Source: Candidatus Caenarcanales bacterium (GTDB lineage Bacteria; Cyanobacteriota; Vampirovibrionia; 2-02-FULL-35-15). Taken from it: DNA of 64,000 nt. The position numbers and the translations under genes were made by a program. The notes below the pieces were generated by a model that made no database searches, had not been told where the DNA came from, and worked only from the letters and a program-made list of their open reading frames with translations. Position 1 is the first letter of the stretch; every line of letters begins with the position of its first letter. The DNA lies in assembly GCA_020050435.1 (NCBI GenBank), contig JAGVKQ010000027.1, forward strand, positions 1-64,000, read 5' to 3'. This document shows positions 5,471 through 12,795 of the stretch, in pieces.

Positions 5471-5594
5471 GGCACATATGGCTTATAGGGCTGATAAGGC
5501 TGATAAGGCTGATAAGGCTAATATGGCAGATAATGAAATATAGAATTCCATATAAGCCTTATATGCCTTATAGTCCTTACATGCCTTATTAGCC
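5471..5594. repeat. 9-bp periodic array with opposed arms
   Basis: The left arm is seven consecutive 9-nt units from 5471 to 5533, including three exact GGCTGATAA copies (5489-5515). The right arm, from 5556, has the complementary units GCCTTATAT, GCCTTATAG, TCCTTACAT and GCCTTATTA. Read on either strand, the two arms form a long imperfect inverted repeat with a 9-nt period. The right arm includes the stop codon of the SufA/IscA-type gene. It could act as a terminator or mRNA 3' hairpin for that leftward gene, which is inference. Confidence 0.75.
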
Positions 5595-6002
5595 CTTGTT
5601 CTCCGATGGGCAAACATTTTTAGCAGATTTTCCAGCAAACTCTAATACTATATCTTTATCACCTACAGAAAAAGAAGTGCCACATCCACAGCTTTTACTA
5701 GCATTTGGATTTTCAAAAACAAAGCCTCTTCCATTTAATCCACCTTGGTAATCAAGGTTTAAGCCCGTTATATATAGAGCGCTTTTTGGATCGATTAAAA
5801 CTTTAATTCCTTCATATTCATCTATGTAATCATTTTCTAAGGTTTTACCAAAATCAAGAATATAAGAAAGTCCAGAGCAACCCCCAGCTGATAGGCCGAT
5901 TCTTACTCCATCAGGATAATTAGCTTCTTCTTTAATAAGATTAGCTAATTGTTTTCTAGCAGAATCTGTTAAATTTACAATTTTTTGTTGTTTAGTTTCC
6001 AT
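5589..6002 (-). CDS. A-type iron-sulfur carrier (IscA/SufA/ErpA/HesB family)
   Basis: The 137-residue HesB-fold protein is expected to accept or carry Fe-S clusters from the SUF scaffold to target proteins in the cytoplasm. It shows LTDSARKQLANLI at the N-terminus, VRIGLSAGGCSGLSYILDF with the first conserved Cys, and SCGCGTSFSV with the C-x-C pair. These are the three cluster-ligating cysteines of the family. A C-terminal extension of about 20 residues (ending CPSENKG) goes beyond the usual length of about 110 and carries one more Cys. The gene diverges from the Rrf2 regulator upstream of the SUF operon. The shared intergenic dyad suggests common Fe-S-responsive control. SufA, IscA and ErpA cannot be told apart from sequence alone. 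Confidence 0.9.
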   Translation of the reverse strand: METKQQKIVNLTDSARKQLANLIKEEANYPDGVRIGLSAGGCSGLSYILDFGKTLENDYIDEYEGIKVLIDPKSALYITGLNLDYQGGLNGRGFVFENPNASKSCGCGTSFSVGDKDIVLEFAGKSAKNVCPSENKG

Positions 6003-6070: not shown

Positions 6071-6124
6071 ATTATACCCCACTTTGGCTAATCTTGACTT
6101 TTTAGTCAAGATTAGGGGTATAAT
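6071..6124. promoter_or_regulatory. Divergent promoter with IscR-like operator dyad
   Basis: A perfect 11-bp inverted repeat, TAATCTTGACT / AGTCAAGATTA (6089-6114, loop TTTT), lies between the A-type carrier and the Rrf2 regulator. It is flanked by outward-facing GGGGTATAAT elements: 6115-6124 rightward and the mirror ATTATACCCC at 6071-6080 leftward. The core YYGACT-N4-AGTCRR closely resembles the type 1 IscR site as I remember it, with a spacer one base shorter. This is most likely the autoregulatory operator of the adjacent Rrf2 protein. Confidence 0.7.
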
Positions 6125-6189
6125 ATTGATAGGCGAAAGCACGTGCCATGCTGAGGAGATATAAAAATAATTTTGCATTGACAATAAAA

Positions 6190-6263
6190 GGATTTGTCCG
6201 ATTTATTCGGTAAATCCGATCAAGTGAGAGGCTTGACCAAAGGAAGGTTCAGCTTGTCTGAAC
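6190..6263 (+). promoter_or_regulatory. Structured leader of the Rrf2 gene (two hairpins)
   Basis: Downstream of the rightward promoter the leader can fold GGATTT-gt-CCGA/TCGG-t-AAATCC (6190-6217) and GTTCAG-cttgt-CTGAAC (6247-6263). The only Shine-Dalgarno-like run, AAGGAAGG (6240-6247), lies about 28 nt before the ATG. The second hairpin sits between them and could bring the two closer. This is a structural observation; its function is unknown. Confidence 0.4.
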
Positions 6264-6275
6264 TTAAACAAATAA

Positions 6276-6740
6276 ATGAAAATAACCTCACAAGAAGAAT
6301 ACGGATTAAGATGCTTGCTTCAAGTAGCACAGCTAACTGTTAAAAATGAGTTAGCTTCATTAGAAGGCATTGCAAAAGCTGAGCATATGACTACTGACTA
6401 TGCAGCTAAGCTTTTAAGCATTTTGCGCAATGCAAACTTGATAGAAAGTGTCCGTGGAAAAAGTGGTGGTTATAAATTATCTCGATTACCATCAGAAATT
6501 AAATTAGATGAAGTAATAAAAGTGTTAAGTGGGGAGTTGTTTGAAGTAAACTCATGCGAGCAATTTCCTGGAAACGATGATAAATGTGTTCATATTGATT
6601 GTTGTTCTATTAGGTCTGTTTGGTTTTCTGTGTCACATATTTTATTTGCATTGTTAAAACAAGTTACATTGGAGGATTTGCTTAAAAAAGAAGATTTATT
6701 AAGTAAATATCTAAAAAAGGAGTTAATTCTAAATCTATAA
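6276..6740 (+). CDS. Rrf2/IscR-family Fe-S-sensing transcriptional regulator
   Basis: The 154-residue winged-helix protein starts MKITSQEEYGLRCLLQVAQL, the typical Rrf2 N-terminus, with a recognition region LASLEGIAKAEHMTTDYAAKLL and the wing LIESVRGKSGGYKLSR. The C-terminal half carries a Cys cluster, NSCEQFPGNDDKCVHIDCCS, in the position where IscR and its relatives bind a 2Fe-2S or 4Fe-4S cluster. It most likely senses iron-sulfur status and controls the flanking SUF genes, playing the role SufR has in cyanobacteria. It is divergent from the A-type carrier and about 130 bp upstream of sufC. The IscR-like dyad in its own promoter suggests autoregulation. Confidence 0.88.
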   Translation: MKITSQEEYGLRCLLQVAQLTVKNELASLEGIAKAEHMTTDYAAKLLSILRNANLIESVRGKSGGYKLSRLPSEIKLDEVIKVLSGELFEVNSCEQFPGNDDKCVHIDCCSIRSVWFSVSHILFALLKQVTLEDLLKKEDLLSKYLKKELILNL

Positions 6741-6750
6741 AAGATACGTT

Positions 6751-6776
6751 GTAAAGACGTTGTATACAACGTCTCT
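6751..6776. repeat. Palindromic repeat, AGACGTTGTATAC type
   Basis: A perfect 20-bp palindrome, AGACGTTGTATACAACGTCT (6755-6774), is preceded by GTAA. Nearly the same sequence recurs at 28943-28966 inside the 3' end of the GT9 gene. It is a member of the GTARRG palindrome family of this window. It lies between the regulator and the sufC promoter. Confidence 0.8.
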
Positions 6777-6801
6777 AAAAAAAATATAAATGTCGGAAAA
6801 G

Positions 6802-6824
6802 TTGAAAAAAAAGTCAAGTATAAT
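6802..6824 (+). promoter_or_regulatory. sufC promoter with second IscR-like half-conserved operator
   Basis: TTGAAA-AAAA-AGTCAAG (6802-6818) is followed directly by TATAAT (6819-6824). The right half, AGTCAAG, and the 4-nt spacing equal those of the dyad at 6089-6114, while the left half keeps only TTGA. The site overlaps the -35/-10 region, so a bound regulator would block transcription of the SUF operon. No separate consensus -35 is visible. Confidence 0.6.
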
Positions 6825-6874: not shown

Positions 6875-7636
6875 ATGTCAGAGTTATTAAAAATTGAAAA
6901 TTTACATGCAGAAATTGATGGAAAAGAAATCCTTCATGGTGTTGATTTAAAAATTGAAAAGGGCGAAATCCATGCAATTATGGGAAGAAATGGATCTGGA
7001 AAAAGCACATTCTCTAATACTATTATGGGGCATCCAGCATATAAAGTTTCAAAAGGAAATATAGTTTTTAATGGTCAGGTAATAAATGAATTAAAAACAA
7101 ATGAAAGAGCAAAACTAGGTTTATTTTTAGGATTTCAATATCCACTTAGTATTCCAGGCGTTACAGTCGCTAATTTTTTAAGACAAGCTATAAAAGCAAT
7201 TAAGGGTGAAACAGTTTCCCCTAAGGATTTCAGAAAACTTCTATATGAAAAAATGGATGATTTAGAAATTGATCATGCATTTGCCACAAGATATGTAAAT
7301 GAAGGATTTTCAGGTGGTGAGAAAAAGAGAATGGAAATTCTTCAGATGGCACTTCTTGAACCAAAGCTTGCAATATTAGATGAACCTGATTCAGGACTTG
7401 ATATTGATTCACTTAAGTTAGTAACTACTAGCATAAATAAATTTAAGGAAACAAATCCTGAAATGAGTTTAATCTTAATTACTCACTATCAAAGAATTCT
7501 TGATCATGTTAAACCTCAGTTTGTACATGTAGTTTCAGAAGGAAAAGTTGTAGAGTCAGGTGGTCCTGAACTTGCATTAGAGTTAGAAAAACGTGGATAT
7601 GATTGGTTGACGGATAGAGAGGTATCTTCGGTATAG
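6875..7636 (+). CDS. sufC: SUF iron-sulfur assembly ATPase SufC
   Basis: The 253-residue ABC-type ATPase powers the SufBCD scaffold on which Fe-S clusters are built in the cytoplasm. Walker A is GRNGSGKSTFSN, the signature is GFSGGEKKRMEILQM, and Walker B is LAILDEPDSGLDID. These are the SufC-specific forms; the signature with KKRMEILQMALLEP is diagnostic. Length and start (MSELLKIENLHAEIDGKEIL) match the family, and GAGG lies upstream of the ATG. It is first in an operon sufC-B-D-Rieske-S-U-T, all on the plus strand with small gaps, and is expected to be repressed through the AGTCAAG site overlapping its -10. Confidence 0.97.
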   Translation: MSELLKIENLHAEIDGKEILHGVDLKIEKGEIHAIMGRNGSGKSTFSNTIMGHPAYKVSKGNIVFNGQVINELKTNERAKLGLFLGFQYPLSIPGVTVANFLRQAIKAIKGETVSPKDFRKLLYEKMDDLEIDHAFATRYVNEGFSGGEKKRMEILQMALLEPKLAILDEPDSGLDIDSLKLVTTSINKFKETNPEMSLILITHYQRILDHVKPQFVHVVSEGKVVESGGPELALELEKRGYDWLTDREVSSV

Positions 7637-7642
7637 AAGAGG

Positions 7643-7667
7643 GTAAAGACTTGCCATGGCAAGTCTC
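7643..7667. repeat. Palindromic repeat between sufC and sufB
   Basis: GTAA is followed by the perfect 20-bp palindrome AGACTTGCCATGGCAAGTCT (7647-7666). It belongs to the GTARRG family. It occupies most of the 45-bp gap between sufC and sufB without replacing the sufB ribosome site (CAGGAG). Confidence 0.8.
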
Positions 7668-7681
7668 AACAGGAGCAATAA

Positions 7682-9085
7682 ATGGCAACAGAATTAAATG
7701 ACGATTACAAGTATGGCTTTCATGATTCAGAAGAAAACTATGCTTTTAAATCTGGGCGTGGATTAACTAAAGAAATAGTTTTAAGTATTTCTAAGATGAA
7801 AAAAGAGCCTGCCTGGATGACAGAGTTTCGTTTGAAATCTCTTGAAATCTTTCTTAAAAAACCTATGCCAAAATGGGGAAGCACACAGCTTTTAAGTGAA
7901 ATTGATTTTGATAATATTTTCTACTATGTAAAATCTGCAGATAAACAAGGTAAAACCTGGGAAGAAGTTCCTGCTGAAATTAAAAACACTTTTGACAGAT
8001 TGGGAATTCCTGAAGCAGAAAGAAAATTCTTGGCTGGGGTCTCAGCACAGTATGAATCTGAAGTTGTTTATCACTCTATCCGTGAAGATCTTGAAAAATT
8101 AGGAGTTATTTTCCTTGATATGGATACAGCTCTTCGTGAGCAGTCAGAAATTGTAAAAAAATACTTCTCTACTATTATTCCTTCTGAAGACAATAAATTT
8201 GCTGCATTAAACAGCGCTGTCTGGTCAGGTGGTTCATTTATTTATGTACCTAAAAATGTAAAAGTAGAAATCCCACTTCAGGCATATTTCAGAATCAATA
8301 CAGAAAATATGGGGCAGTTTGAAAGAACACTTATTATTGCTGATGAAGGAAGCTCTGTTCATTATATAGAAGGATGTACAGCACCTACATATAGTTCAGA
8401 TTCTTTACACTCAGCAGTTGTTGAATTGATTGCTTTAAAGGGTGCAAAAATCAGATATACCACTATCCAGAATTGGTCAAAGAATGTTTTTAATCTTGTA
8501 ACTAAAAGATCTGTTGCTCATGAAGATGCAGTGGTTGAATGGGTTGATGGAAATCTTGGTTCGAAATTAACTATGAAATATCCTGCTATTTATTTAGTGG
8601 GCGAAAGAGCACATGGCGAAGTTCTTTCAGTAGCTATGGCTAGTGGAAATGATCAGCATCAGGATGCTGGAGCAAAAATAATTCATGCTGCTCCTAATAC
8701 TACATCTGTGATTACATCTAAATCTATTTCAAAAAGTGGTGGTAGAGCTAGTTACCGTGGTCTTATAAAGGTTCACAAAGGTGCTACAAATGTAAAGTCT
8801 ACTATTAAGTGTGATGCACTTATGCTGGATGAACATTCTCGTTCTGATACGTATCCTACTATGGAAATTGATGAGAAAGATGTTCGTATAGAACATGAAG
8901 CTACTGTAAGTAAGATAGAAGATGAAAAGCTTTTTTATCTTATGAGCCGTGGACTTTCAGAAGACCAGGCAAAATTAATGATAGTAAATGGTTTTATGGA
9001 GCCTTTTGTTAAAGAGCTTCCTATGGAATATGCAGTGGAATTAAACAGACTTATAGAAATGGAAATGGAAGGGTCTATAGGCTAA
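7682..9085 (+). CDS. sufB: SUF scaffold protein SufB
   Basis: The 467-residue protein has the all-beta helical SufB/SufD core (about residues 140-440). It forms the SufBCD complex that receives sulfide and iron and assembles a nascent cluster. Family markers are the N-terminal [20 protein letters not shown], the core [37 protein letters not shown], and the C-terminal [20 protein letters not shown]. The last holds the conserved region at the SufB-SufD interface. Length and start agree with cyanobacterial and Gram-positive SufB. The CAGGAGCAATAA ribosome site supports the ATG. The sufD start lies one base past its stop, so translation is probably coupled. Confidence 0.97.
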
Positions 9086-9086
9086 T

Positions 9087-10268
9087 ATGACTCAATTAAA
9101 AGAGAAAATTAATGAACCTCAATGGCTTCTTGATAAAAGAAGAGCTGCTAATGATTCTTATAAGGTGGCTTCTGCTCCTGATCGGGTTTCACATCTGTGG
9201 AAATATACTGATCCTTCTATTTTTTTACCTGAGTTAAATGGGTTAAAGTTGGGTGAATCAAAAATTGAACTTCCTTTAACTGAGGAAGCTTTAAAAAAAG
9301 GTGTAGTTTTACTTGAAATAAATTCTGCAATGAAAGAGAAAAGTAATCTTTTGGCTAATTACTTTGATAGATTGGCTTCGAAGGAATTAAATAAAATAAA
9401 TCTTTTAAATGAAGCACTCTGGAGTACAGGGTATTTTTTATATATTCCAAAAGGAGTAAAAGTTGAAAAGCCTGTTGTTATTAAATCTTCACTTCCGAGA
9501 GATTTTGAAGCAAGAAGAATTTTAATTATTTTAGAAGAAGGATCCTCCGTAAATTTAATAGATGAAAATTTGTCTTCAGATAGTGAAGCCTTCATTAATA
9601 CTGTTTCAGAGATATATTTAGGAAAAGATTCAGAATTAACTTATTTAAATATTAATCTCAATGGGAAACAAACTATTAGCCACTTATTCCAAAGAACTTC
9701 TTTGGGGCAGAATTCTAAGCTTACAAATCTAGTGGTTGCTTTGGGTGGAAAAATCTCAAAGGCAGACATACGTTATATCTTAAATGAAGAAAGTGCAGCT
9801 TCACATACATATGGAATAGTTTTAGGTGATGACAAACAACATTTTGACCATCATACTATTCTGGACCATCAAGCTTCTTTTACAAAATCTAGCTTAAATT
9901 TTAGAGTAGCTCTTAAAGATAAAGCAAGGTCAGCATATACTGGAAATCTGAAAATTATTCATGAAGCTTTGAAATGCAGTGCTATTCAGGAAAATAGAAA
10001 CCTTCTTTTATCTAAAGATGCAAAAGCAGAATCTATTCCTGAACTTGAAATCCTTACTAATGATGTAGAAAGATGCAGTCATGGAGTTACTATGGGGCAG
10101 GTGGATAAAGATCAGATTTATTATTTGATGTCACGCGGATTGTCTCAGAAAGAAGCAGAGAAAATGGTTATAGAAGGATTCTTAGAGCCTACCATTTCAA
10201 GGATTCCTGATGAAGTTTTGCGTGAAGAAGTAAAGTCTCGCATTGAAGAGAAGTTGAAAACTTTATGA
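9087..10268 (+). CDS. sufD: SUF scaffold protein SufD
   Basis: The 393-residue SufB paralog forms the other half of the SufB-SufD heterodimer. The N-terminus, QWLLDKRRAANDSYKVA...LWKYTDPS, is the usual SufD alpha-helical domain. The core has FLYIPKGVKVEKPVVI and HFDHHTILDHQASFTKS. The C-terminus NDVERCSHGVTMGQVDKDQIYYLMSRGL contains the conserved Cys and His (ERCSHG) near the proposed cluster site. It overlaps the Rieske gene by 4 bp (ATGA), which suggests coupled translation. Position directly after sufB is typical. Confidence 0.96.
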   Translation: MTQLKEKINEPQWLLDKRRAANDSYKVASAPDRVSHLWKYTDPSIFLPELNGLKLGESKIELPLTEEALKKGVVLLEINSAMKEKSNLLANYFDRLASKELNKINLLNEALWSTGYFLYIPKGVKVEKPVVIKSSLPRDFEARRILIILEEGSSVNLIDENLSSDSEAFINTVSEIYLGKDSELTYLNINLNGKQTISHLFQRTSLGQNSKLTNLVVALGGKISKADIRYILNEESAASHTYGIVLGDDKQHFDHHTILDHQASFTKSSLNFRVALKDKARSAYTGNLKIIHEALKCSAIQENRNLLLSKDAKAESIPELEILTNDVERCSHGVTMGQVDKDQIYYLMSRGLSQKEAEKMVIEGFLEPTISRIPDEVLREEVKSRIEEKLKTL

Positions 10269-10579
10269 TAAAAACTAAAATCAAAAAATCAGAAATTAAA
10301 GAAGGTAAAGCAAAGTCATTTACTCTTGGAGATGAAAAAATAGTTATAAGTAATGTCTCTGGTGAGTATTTTGCTGTTAGTGATGTCTGTTCTCACGATG
10401 ATGGTGAGCTGGTTTCAGGGGAATGTGATCTTGTGGAAAATTGTCAGATAGTATGTCCTAGGCATGGTGCCAGGTTTGATGTGAAGACAGGAAAAGCCAC
10501 ACGCATGCCTGCCATAGCGCCAATCGCTACATTTAAGGTTAATGTCGTAGGCGATGAAATAGAGGTAGAGGCAACGTAG
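10265..10579 (+). CDS. Rieske-type [2Fe-2S] ferredoxin of the SUF operon
   Basis: The 104-residue single-domain Rieske protein has box 1 DVCSHDDGEL (C-x-H) and box 2 IVCPRHGARFD (C-x2-H), supplying the two Cys and two His cluster ligands. It lacks membrane segments, so it is a soluble electron carrier like those of some dioxygenase systems. Similar small Rieske genes occur inside suf operons of other bacteria, in my recollection, where they may supply electrons for cluster assembly. The start overlaps the sufD stop (ATGA). Its own stop codon TAG is part of the palindromic repeat that follows, so the original C-terminus may have been altered by the insertion. Confidence 0.9.
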   Translation: MIKTKIKKSEIKEGKAKSFTLGDEKIVISNVSGEYFAVSDVCSHDDGELVSGECDLVENCQIVCPRHGARFDVKTGKATRMPAIAPIATFKVNVVGDEIEVEAT

Positions 10580-10600
10580 GGGCAGGTTGCAACCTGCCCA
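10576..10600. repeat. Palindromic repeat GTAGGGGCAGGTT type
   Basis: GTAG is followed by a perfect 20-bp palindrome, GGGCAGGTTGCAACCTGCCC (10580-10599). It is the same GGCAGGTT/AACCTGCC core as the copies inside coding genes at 40784 and 63389. The TAG of the Rieske gene is within it. Confidence 0.85.
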
Positions 10601-10633
10601 CCGATGAGTGGCAATGTTTTGCAAAGGTTATTT

Positions 10634-11944
10634 ATGTTTGACGTAAAGAAAATTCGTAAAGATTTTAAGATTTTAAATAGAGAAATCTGGGATGACAAGC
10701 TTCTTGTTTATTTGGATAATGCAGCGACTACTCAAAAACCTAATTGTGTTATTGACTCCATTGTTAATTACTATGAAAACTATAATGCAAATATTCATAG
10801 GGGTGTTCATAAGTTGGCTGAAGAAGCCACTGTTGCTTATGAAAATGTAAGAGAAAAAGTCTCAAGGTTTATAAATGCCAGTGATGAAGATGCTGTAATC
10901 TTTACCAGAAATGCTACTGAATCTATGAATCTTTTAGCTTTTTGCCTAGGTGAATCTTTAAAAGAAGGGGATGAAGTTATTATCTCTGAGATGGAGCACC
11001 ATGCAAATATTATTCCTTGGTATTTATTGAGAGATAGAAAAAAAATAACAATTAAATTTATTCCTATTACAGAAAAGTATGAATTAGACTATGAAGCTCT
11101 TGAAAAATTGATTACTAAAAAGACAAAAATAGTTTCTATAACTCAGAAATCCAATGTTTTAGGAACAGTTAATGACATAAAGAAAATCTCAAAACTTGCT
11201 AAAACTGTAAATGCTATTGTGATTGTAGATGCTGCTCAAAGCGCTCCCCACATGAAGATTGATTTCAGTAATTTAGGGGCTGATTTTATAGCTTTCTCTT
11301 CGCATAAAATGTGTGGACCTACAGGTATTGGTGTATTAGTAGGTAAAAAAGAACTTTTAGAAAAAATGCCACCATATATGGGTGGTGGGGAAATGATTAG
11401 GAAAGTAACTTTTGAAGATTTTACTTGTAATGATGTTCCTTGGAAATTTGAAGCTGGTACTCCTAATATCGCTGATGTTATTGCATTTGGTGTTGCACTT
11501 GATTATTTGGAAAACATTGGAATTGAAAATATCTATGAATATGAAAAAGAGCTTACTTTATATGCTCTTGATAAGATGAAGCAATTTGAATTCTTGAAGA
11601 TTTATAATTCACGAGCTGCGAGCTGCGAGCAGGGATCTGGGAATTCTTCCTCTCAGGACGCAGGACGCGGCTCGGGTATCGGTCTCATAACCTTCTCTAA
11701 CCCAGTAGTTCATCCTCATGACATAGCTACGATAGTAGATCAATATGGTGTAGCCATAAGAGCAGGGCATCACTGTGCACAGCCTTTAATGAAAAAACTT
11801 GGTGTGTCATCTACATGCAGAGCCAGCTTTTATTTTTATAATACAAAAGAAGAAATTGATATTTTTATAAATGTATTAAAGAAAGCGTTAGAATATTTTG
11901 AAATTGGAGCATGCAAAACATTAAAAACTGTTTTGCCAAAATGA
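10634..11944 (+). CDS. sufS: Cysteine desulfurase SufS with in-frame GC-rich insertion
   Basis: This PLP enzyme takes sulfur from cysteine and passes it, normally through SufU or SufE, to the SufBCD scaffold. The track ORF begins at 10604, but the family start MFDVKKIRKDFKIL at 10634 has AAAGG 6 nt before it, giving 436 residues. Visible features are LVYLDNAATTQKP, EMEHHANIIPW, VDAAQSAPHM, the PLP lysine in FSSHKMCGPTG, and the catalytic Cys loop STCRASFYFYNT near the C-terminus. Between KIYN and GIGLITF lie about 24 extra residues (SRAASCEQGSGNSSSQDAGR) encoded by GC-rich repeat-like DNA. This loop is short in other SufS proteins. Catalytic residues are intact, so activity is probably kept. 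Confidence 0.95.
   Translation: MFDVKKIRKDFKILNREIWDDKLLVYLDNAATTQKPNCVIDSIVNYYENYNANIHRGVHKLAEEATVAYENVREKVSRFINASDEDAVIFTRNATESMNLLAFCLGESLKEGDEVIISEMEHHANIIPWYLLRDRKKITIKFIPITEKYELDYEALEKLITKKTKIVSITQKSNVLGTVNDIKKISKLAKTVNAIVIVDAAQSAPHMKIDFSNLGADFIAFSSHKMCGPTGIGVLVGKKELLEKMPPYMGGGEMIRKVTFEDFTCNDVPWKFEAGTPNIADVIAFGVALDYLENIGIENIYEYEKELTLYALDKMKQFEFLKIYNSRAASCEQGSGNSSSQDAGRGSGIGLITFSNPVVHPHDIATIVDQYGVAIRAGHHCAQPLMKKLGVSSTCRASFYFYNTKEEIDIFINVLKKALEYFEIGACKTLKTVLPK
11611..11674. repeat. GC-rich imperfect inverted repeat inside sufS
   Basis: The left end, CGAGCTGCGAGCTGCGAGC, is matched imperfectly by the complement of the right end (GGACGCAGGACGCGGCTCG). Each side has a 7-nt period, and the centre is GGGAATTCTTCC. 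Its high G+C contrasts sharply with the surrounding gene. The length added leaves the reading frame open. Confidence 0.7.
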
Positions 11945-11951
11945 GGACAAT

Positions 11952-12422
11952 ATGACAACAGCGATTATGGATAGATCAACACCACAATTAGATGAATTAT
12001 ATAAAGAAATAATTCTTGAGCATTATCGTCATCCATGCGGTAGAGAGCCTCTTGAAAGAGTAGATCTTGAAGCAGAAGGACTGAATCCATTGTGTGGAGA
12101 TGAAGTCAAGTTAGGACTTCAAATAAAAAATAATGTAATTGAAAAGGTCCATTTAGAAGGACATGGTTGTTCTATAAGTACTGCTTCAGGTTCTATTTTG
12201 GCTGATATCTTAAAGGGCAAAACTCTTGATGAGGCAAAAAAATATTTAACATATGTAAAAGAAACTATGCATAATAAGCCTCACTCTATTGATGTTGAAG
12301 AGGGCGATTTAGAGGTTCTCGAGGGTGTTAAAAGATTTCCAGTCAGAATTAAATGTGCATTATTGCCATGGACTACATTGGAAGAAGCAATGGCTGGACA
12401 CAAACACGTGGAAATCTCATAG
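11952..12422 (+). CDS. sufU: SufU, zinc-type sulfur-relay partner of SufS (IscU-like)
   Basis: The 156-residue protein takes persulfide sulfur from SufS and delivers it to SufB. It has the SufU form of the IscU fold: LYKEIILEHYRHPCGREPL, NPLCGDEVKLGLQI (first Cys plus Asp), LEGHGCSISTASGSILADIL, and VRIKCALLPWTTLEEAM (third Cys). The extra segment of about 20 residues before the last Cys (SIDVEEGDLEVLEGV) is characteristic of SufU rather than IscU scaffolds. GAGGAC lies upstream of the ATG. The presence of SufU and absence of SufE fit Gram-positive-like and some other SUF operons. Confidence 0.95.
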   Translation: MTTAIMDRSTPQLDELYKEIILEHYRHPCGREPLERVDLEAEGLNPLCGDEVKLGLQIKNNVIEKVHLEGHGCSISTASGSILADILKGKTLDEAKKYLTYVKETMHNKPHSIDVEEGDLEVLEGVKRFPVRIKCALLPWTTLEEAMAGHKHVEIS

Positions 12423-12426
12423 GGCT

Positions 12427-12451
12427 GTAGGGGCATATTGCATATGCCCAT
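12427..12451. repeat. Palindromic repeat between sufU and sufT
   Basis: GTAGG is followed by GGGCATAT-tgc-ATATGCCC (12431-12449), with perfect 8-bp arms. It is the same GTAGGGGC head as the copy at 10576, with a different core. It lies in the 64-bp gap before sufT. The long track ORF starting inside sufU merely reads through it. Confidence 0.8.
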
Positions 12452-12486
12452 CTAATGAAAAAAAATTAACAATAACGGAGAAAAAA

Positions 12487-12795
12487 ATGCCTACAAAAGA
12501 AGAAGTAATAGAAGCGATTAGACCAGTTAAAGACCCAGAAATGAATATTAGTGTAGTGGATCTTGGACTTATTTATGACGTTAAATTTTTAGATGAAGGA
12601 AAAAAAGCTTTTGTTGAAATGACATTAACTAGCCCAGGATGTCCTGTGGGACCACAAATTATGGCAGCAGTTCATGGAAAAGCACTTGAAGTACCAGGTA
12701 TTGAAGATGCTGAGGTTAAGTTAATCTGGACACCTAAATGGGATCCAAAAATTATGGCATCTGAGGATGCTAAGGATATGCTAGGTATTTTTTAG
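12487..12795 (+). CDS. sufT: SufT / MIP18 (DUF59) family Fe-S maturation protein
   Basis: I take the start as the ATG at 12487 (MPTKEEVIEAIRPVKDPEMN), preceded by GGAG at 12477-12480. The longer track ORF overlaps sufU in another frame and crosses a palindromic repeat. The 102-residue protein has the DUF59 pattern IRPVKDPEMNISVVDLGLIYDV, then VEMTLTSPGCPVGPQIMAAV with the conserved Cys of the family. MIP18/SufT proteins assist late steps of Fe-S delivery to particular targets. The C-terminal tail WTPKWDPKIMASEDAKDMLGIF is typical. It is the last gene of the operon, followed by an intergenic repeat. Confidence 0.93.
   Translation: MPTKEEVIEAIRPVKDPEMNISVVDLGLIYDVKFLDEGKKAFVEMTLTSPGCPVGPQIMAAVHGKALEVPGIEDAEVKLIWTPKWDPKIMASEDAKDMLGIF

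Follow-up and report, generated by a model that had tools for sequence, protein, structure and literature searches.

The SUF locus at 5.6–12.8 kb of the window (the whole 64,000-nucleotide stretch that was analysed) raises the question of which protein controls its promoters, and through which sites. The locus begins with a gene for an A-type Fe-S carrier (ErpA/SufA-like; 5589..6002, minus strand), followed on the plus strand by rrf2 (6276..6740) and by an operon (6875..12795) of sufC, sufB, sufD, a Rieske-type ferredoxin gene, sufS, sufU and a SufT-like gene. The carrier matched TIGR00049 with 107 bits against a cut-off of 58.8; the NCBIfam matches of sufC, sufB, sufD, sufS and sufU lay above the cut-off and that of SUF_assoc/SufT below it. 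The genome (2.49 Mb, 30 contigs) has as its nearest named relatives Candidatus Melainabacteria whose sources are groundwater and the like. What is known of the control of Fe-S supply comes mainly from Proteobacteria (IscR, RirA, RisR), Actinobacteria and Cyanobacteria (SufR). Downstream of the carrier gene, at 5476-5592 of the window, short repeat units GGCTGATAA / CTTATATGCC were observed.

The preliminary description of this DNA had placed a perfect TTGACT-tttt-AGTCAAG dyad between the A-type carrier and Rrf2 genes, and we found it there: the inner dyad TTGACT-TTTT-AGTCAA occupies 6094-6109, within a longer inverted repeat with perfect 12-bp arms, CTAATCTTGACT-TTTT-AGTCAAGATTAG (putative operator 1, 6088..6115, no strand assigned), the conserved core of which, AATCTTGA-N8-TCAAGATT, spans 6090-6113. 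This repeat is flanked by two divergent TATAAT boxes. The one on the plus strand (6119..6124) is the predicted -10 of the rrf2 promoter, for which TTGACT of operator 1 is a possible -35, with a 19-bp spacer here and 17 bp in one relative. The other, on the minus strand (6076-6071; GGGGTATAAT on that strand, ATTATA on the plus strand), is the predicted -10 of the carrier promoter, and its expected -35 site lies under operator 1. The predicted rrf2 leader is long (~145 nt; window 6131-6275), with two more inverted repeats, GGATTT...AAATCC and GTTCAG...CTGAAC.

The second site that had been described, TTGAAA-aaaa-AGTCAAG abutting the sufC TATAAT, is likewise present: the inner dyad TTGAAA-AAAA-AGTCAA (6802-6817) is followed by a single G and then by TATAAT (6819..6824, plus strand), the predicted -10 from which the sufC operon would be transcribed; the sufC gene itself begins 51 bp further on, at 6875. 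Putative operator 2 (AAAGTTGA-N8-TCAAGTAT; 6798..6821, no strand assigned) thus occupies the 17 bp 5' of this -10 and overlaps it, and its left half (TTGAAA) is weakly symmetric in the window genome. Both dyads share the arrangement TTGA-N8-TCAA, so that the claim of one spacing at the two SUF promoters holds.

The protein encoded between the two dyads belongs to the Rrf2 superfamily (TIGR00738, 95.7 bits, cut-off 73.3), and lies far below the equivalog cut-offs of IscR (TIGR02010, 69.7 bits against 207.55), RirA, NsrR, CymR and the SUF-regulator. Its cysteines, C94-x9-C104-x5-C110, are invariant in 23 aligned sequences, and the C-x9-C-x5-C spacing was found in 74 of 90 relatives; the same script read E. 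coli IscR as C-x5-C-x5-C, a spacing that the window protein does not have. When aligned with E. coli IscR, it carries Ala at the position of Glu43, a residue that contacts DNA in IscR (PMC9338935). The SufR model (TIGR02702) gave no match in the genome of the window, and in two other families of the class (f2 and f7) its matches beside sufB stayed below the cut-off.

The preliminary description had proposed a genome scan with the degenerate motif, with enrichment at Fe-S genes as support, and this test failed. A single copy of the exact 12-letter dyad was found in the 2.49 Mb of the genome; at two mismatches, which is the level of the sufC site, there were 131 matches against 199 for a reversed-pattern control, and at three mismatches the window held 40 matches against 54 expected. 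The count for AATCTTGA-N8-TCAAGATT with three mismatches was near its control too. The degenerate pattern alone is therefore random, the sufC site is unexceptional genome-wide by its letters, and no regulon can be drawn from such a scan, since the dyad is no commoner than its reversed control. One-mismatch matches in the window's genome were discarded, as they fell inside genes or in a repetitive stretch, and a count of CTTGA-N(5-11)-TCAAG was dropped as evidence because inverted repeats in general, at mixed spacings, outnumbered those of the control.

The dyad joined to a -10 box is, unlike the degenerate dyad alone, non-random. We scanned 11 genomes of one family (f1: the window genome and 10 relatives) for TTGA-N(6-10)-TCAAG-N(0-9)-TATAAT, with the spacer left free, and obtained 28 matches, compared to 4 on the forward and 5 on the reverse strand for the reversed-pattern control. 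The suf locus accounts for 16 of the 28, all 16 with N8; the 12 matches outside it are spread over N9, N8, N7, N6 and N10 (5, 3, 2, 1 and 1, respectively). As far as it was detected, the regulon hardly extends beyond the suf locus. In one relative (G010, L086, contig C47:22687), TTGA-N8-TCAAG stands beside TTATAAT just 5' of an ispG-like gene, encoding a [4Fe-4S] enzyme; this site, found in a single genome and possibly due to chance, was not counted as part of a regulon. The case for the putative operator pair thus comes from position and conservation, not from genome-wide enrichment.

The rrf2 upstream regions of all 11 f1 genomes contain AATCTTGA-N8-TCAAGATT, matching 13 to 16 of 16 letters. 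TATAAT follows the site shortly, and in most of the genomes ATTATACCC, which is the -10 for the divergent carrier gene, stands before it. At the sufC promoters, where operator and TATAAT adjoin in relatives, AAT[CG]TTGA-N8-TCAAGTAT or a close form, with a clear N8, was found in 9 of 11 genomes; the remaining two comprise one degenerate N8 form and one promoter in which no site was found. The pair is thus conserved in f1. In a second family (f4), rrf2 directly precedes sufB and encodes a protein 35-44% identical to that of the window, and AATCTTGA-N8-TAAAGATT lies upstream of the rrf2-sufB operon in 8 of 8 regions, with 13 to 15 of the 16 letters of the f1 motif. Together, the rrf2 upstream regions of the two families keep the core at spacing 8 in 19 of 19 cases, although the left half may be partly conserved for promoter reasons, given that TTGAC doubles as a -35 element. 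Just upstream of the operator, f4 loci (L027, L028, L030, L031) carry a palindrome resembling a Fur box, with the letters TTGAGAAC[TG]ATTCTCAA or nearly so, which suggests that suf answers to both iron and Fe-S status in this family.

Rrf2 of the window type sits at suf in f1, f4 and a third family, f6. In f6 (L035-L038), reading by eye gave another conserved dyad directly before rrf2, ACTAATAC-N7-GTATTAGT, suggesting that both the operator and its spacing have changed there. No operator was found at the 13 suf loci from families that lack Rrf2 of the window type. Among these families, f2 and f7 (L176-L185, L187-L192) lack Rrf2 of the window type and have a SufR-like gene beside sufB; compared with the Rrf2-bearing families, one operon has thus exchanged its type of regulator within a single class. 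The f5 genomes tested gave no SufB match. In f3 (L197), a perfect palindrome, AAGGTTGACGTTAACGTCAACCTT, occurs in two copies 950 and 873 bp before sufB, 77 bp apart.

The motif reaches beyond the window organism and its relatives, into other phyla. We gathered 80 Rrf2 relatives from genome contigs by protein alone; those outside the class were picked by one conserved N-terminal peptide, and the sample represents one Rrf2 subfamily. The spacer had been set by the window before any of these sequences were seen. Among the 46 YTGAC-bearing rrf2 upstream regions from outside Melainabacteria (Planctomycetota, Acidobacteriota, Omnitrophota and one from Krumholzibacteriota), GT, with which the partner half-site begins, follows at N6 in 45, and at any other spacing in at most 11. 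Because the spacing was fixed beforehand, this is an independent confirmation, with the reservation that related sequences are not mutually independent. The cross-phylum consensus reads AWWCTTGAC-A6-GT[AC]ANGATT; the per-locus best-site heuristic behind it mis-picked L135, L142, L169 and probably L132, upstream of which likelier sites can be seen, and the conclusion on spacing is drawn from the 45 of 46. Directly 5' of rrf2 we saw no operator in the homologues from Bacteroidota, Neomarinimicrobiota, Armatimonadota and Bryobacterales, in which another gene mostly comes first; a position inside an operon, frequently behind sufT (as in Bacteroidota, Armatimonadota, Bryobacterales and other groups), leaves rrf2 with no promoter in which the site could lie. 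On a tree of the subfamily built without RisR, the N6 state is spread across deep branches. Judging by these alignments, the same unusual spacing is kept in at least four bacterial phyla. We lean towards a broad, multi-phylum class of SUF-linked C-x9-C-x5-C Rrf2 proteins with an even-centred GAC-N6-GTC operator, one base pair short of the IscR type 1 and RisR sites. On such an operator the bound dimer would have to set its two reading heads about one base-pair step (3.4 Å, 36 degrees) closer than on known IscR-type operators. The spacing would be older than the split between the regulators of Melainabacteria, Planctomycetota, Acidobacteriota and Omnitrophota, and would have changed in f6.

Several other explanations of the dyads have to be weighed against control by the adjacent Rrf2. 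The perfect 12-bp arms could form an RNA stem, making the first dyad a terminator or attenuator, yet the predicted starts of the two divergent transcripts both lie downstream of it, no run of T follows, and the terminator scan did not report it; moreover, half-site letters and spacing are kept in the relatives, in which the arms are not perfect in every case. We give a hairpin next to no chance. It is also very unlikely that the dyads are strong sigma-70 promoter elements only, each a TTGAC -35 with a chance inverted copy: a promoter does not call for a GTCAAGATT half at a fixed distance in one phylum after another, and at sufC the TTGA half is off the -35 position, the TTGAAA hexamer ending 11 bp before TATAAT, even though TTGAC of operator 1 is usable as the rrf2 -35 and the degenerate dyad is not over-represented genome-wide. 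Terminator and bare promoter were both rejected on position, on the terminator scan and on the exact spacing across phyla.

Binding by some other regulator, such as a second Rrf2, a Fur protein or a further factor, seems quite improbable. There is exactly one other Rrf2 in the genome (G000:C28:28402-28785; also delimited as G000:C28:28396-28788, locus L174, 1462-1938), encoded shortly before a gene for a NifS-like cysteine desulfurase and with counterparts in most f1 genomes, and in f4 the Fur-like box does stand beside the operator. However, this second Rrf2 is devoid of cysteines and groups with E. coli IscR, at a large distance from the window subfamily, and no Fur-like box was noticed by eye at the window's own two sites. 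In addition, the operator is missing at suf loci without the first Rrf2 and lies directly upstream of the gene of that Rrf2 in four other phyla. Since presence or absence of the operator tracks that of the neighbouring Rrf2, this protein is the best candidate regulator of both dyads. As to the sign of its action, an apo-form activator would have a precedent in E. coli, where suf is activated by apo-IscR at type 2 sites (PMC9973013). We regard such a circuit as rather unlikely here: both operators overlap core promoter elements, so that protein bound there is expected to obstruct polymerase, the site is like type 1 and unlike type 2, and RisR, which shares the cysteine spacing, represses in its holo form.

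We therefore consider it likely that the dyads are operators of the Rrf2 encoded between them, and that this protein is an autoregulated, cluster-sensing repressor of three promoters, those of the A-type carrier, rrf2 and the sufC operon. An Rrf2 dimer with an Fe-S cluster on C94, C104 and C110 would bind TTGA(C)-N8-TCAA and block RNA polymerase at all three. Operator 1 covers the predicted -35 region of both the rrf2 and the divergent carrier promoters, and operator 2 fills the -35/-10 spacer of the sufC-B-D-fdx-S-U-T operon. Under cluster shortage, Rrf2 would lose its cluster and leave the DNA, and the assembly genes and their regulator would rise together. Negative feedback on Fe-S cluster supply is what is expected if a regulator that binds a cluster acts both on its own gene and on the assembly operon. 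The sequence elements, their conservation and exact spacing, the overlap with promoters and the co-occurrence with this Rrf2 are observed; binding, cluster occupancy, repression by the holo-form and the occlusion mechanism are proposed after the models of RisR in M. xanthus and of IscR at isc in E. coli. Of the two broader claims of the preliminary description, the Fe-S feedback circuit is thus borne out as regards the operator pair conserved at SUF promoters, while binding and feedback keep the standing of predictions. The other, an IscR-like operator beside its likely regulator, is right in that the adjacent Rrf2 tracks the operator; the protein is not an IscR by cut-off or by cysteine spacing, and the design is closer to that of RisR.

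The kind of system, an Rrf2-type Fe-S feedback repressor, is already known; it is the operator spacing that is probably new, and SUF-linked Rrf2 proteins in several phyla probably share it. In the open-access literature we did not find this spacing described for Rrf2 sites, Melainabacteria or Planctomycetes, which in itself is not proof of novelty. It appears to represent a widespread, so far undescribed variant of iron-sulfur feedback control. The analysis supplies a precise candidate suf operator for Melainabacteria, Planctomycetota, Acidobacteriota and Omnitrophota, for which none was found described in the same literature, and presents an exchange of SufR-like and Rrf2 regulators at one operon within one class. 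It also yields a natural series of spacer lengths, with N6 here and N7 reported for RisR and IscR type 1, which may help to understand how Rrf2 dimers measure the distance between half-sites and how cluster loading sets that distance.

Among known systems, SufR of cyanobacteria is a winged-helix, ArsR/DeoR-type protein with the site CAAC-N6-GTTG. The window Rrf2 resembles it in being a candidate suf repressor encoded next to suf, with the same task in sister lineages, but belongs to another protein family with another site, and SufR-like genes adjoin sufB in other families of the class. RirA and the Iron-Rhodo-box regulators of Alphaproteobacteria are Rrf2 proteins with TGA...TCA palindromes. 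In contrast to the Iron-Rhodo-box, a 19-bp and thus odd-centred palindrome (PMC4618611) serving large iron regulons, the dyad here is even-centred.

E. coli IscR at its type 1 sites (published consensus ATASYYGACTRWWWYAGTCRRSTAT) shares with the window system the Rrf2 family, a nearly identical half-site (ATAnYTGAC/GTCRRnTAT) and the placing of the regulator gene and an Fe-S assembly operon under one type of site. It differs in spacing: type 1 is YYGA-N9-TCRR, and all suf-linked sites here have N8. As a positive control, the same scan read both sites of the E. coli iscR promoter as N9, which confirms the earlier remark that the spacer is one base shorter than in type 1. IscR, in which C-x5-C-x5-C goes together with a His ligand, further differs in this x5-x5 spacing, as opposed to x9-x5, and in Glu43, which is Ala here.

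The closest characterised counterpart, judged by reported cysteine spacing and description, is RisR of Myxococcus xanthus, a member of Rrf2 group IS6, which is reported to include Acidobacteria and Cyanobacteria (PMC9973013). RisR has cysteines C92-x9-C102-x5-C108 and is an autoregulated repressor of suf/isc in its [4Fe-4S] holo form, whose sites overlap -35/-10 and whose reported operator is TtGAC-N7-GTCC (PMC9973013). The window system departs from it in having GAC-N6-GTC in place of GAC-N7-GTC, and in that only suf and the A-type carrier were detected under the putative operators, against isc and suf for RisR. It agrees with RisR in the x9-x5 spacing of C94, C104 and C110, in the linkage to SUF, in the predicted autoregulation and in the predicted operators lying over -35/-10.
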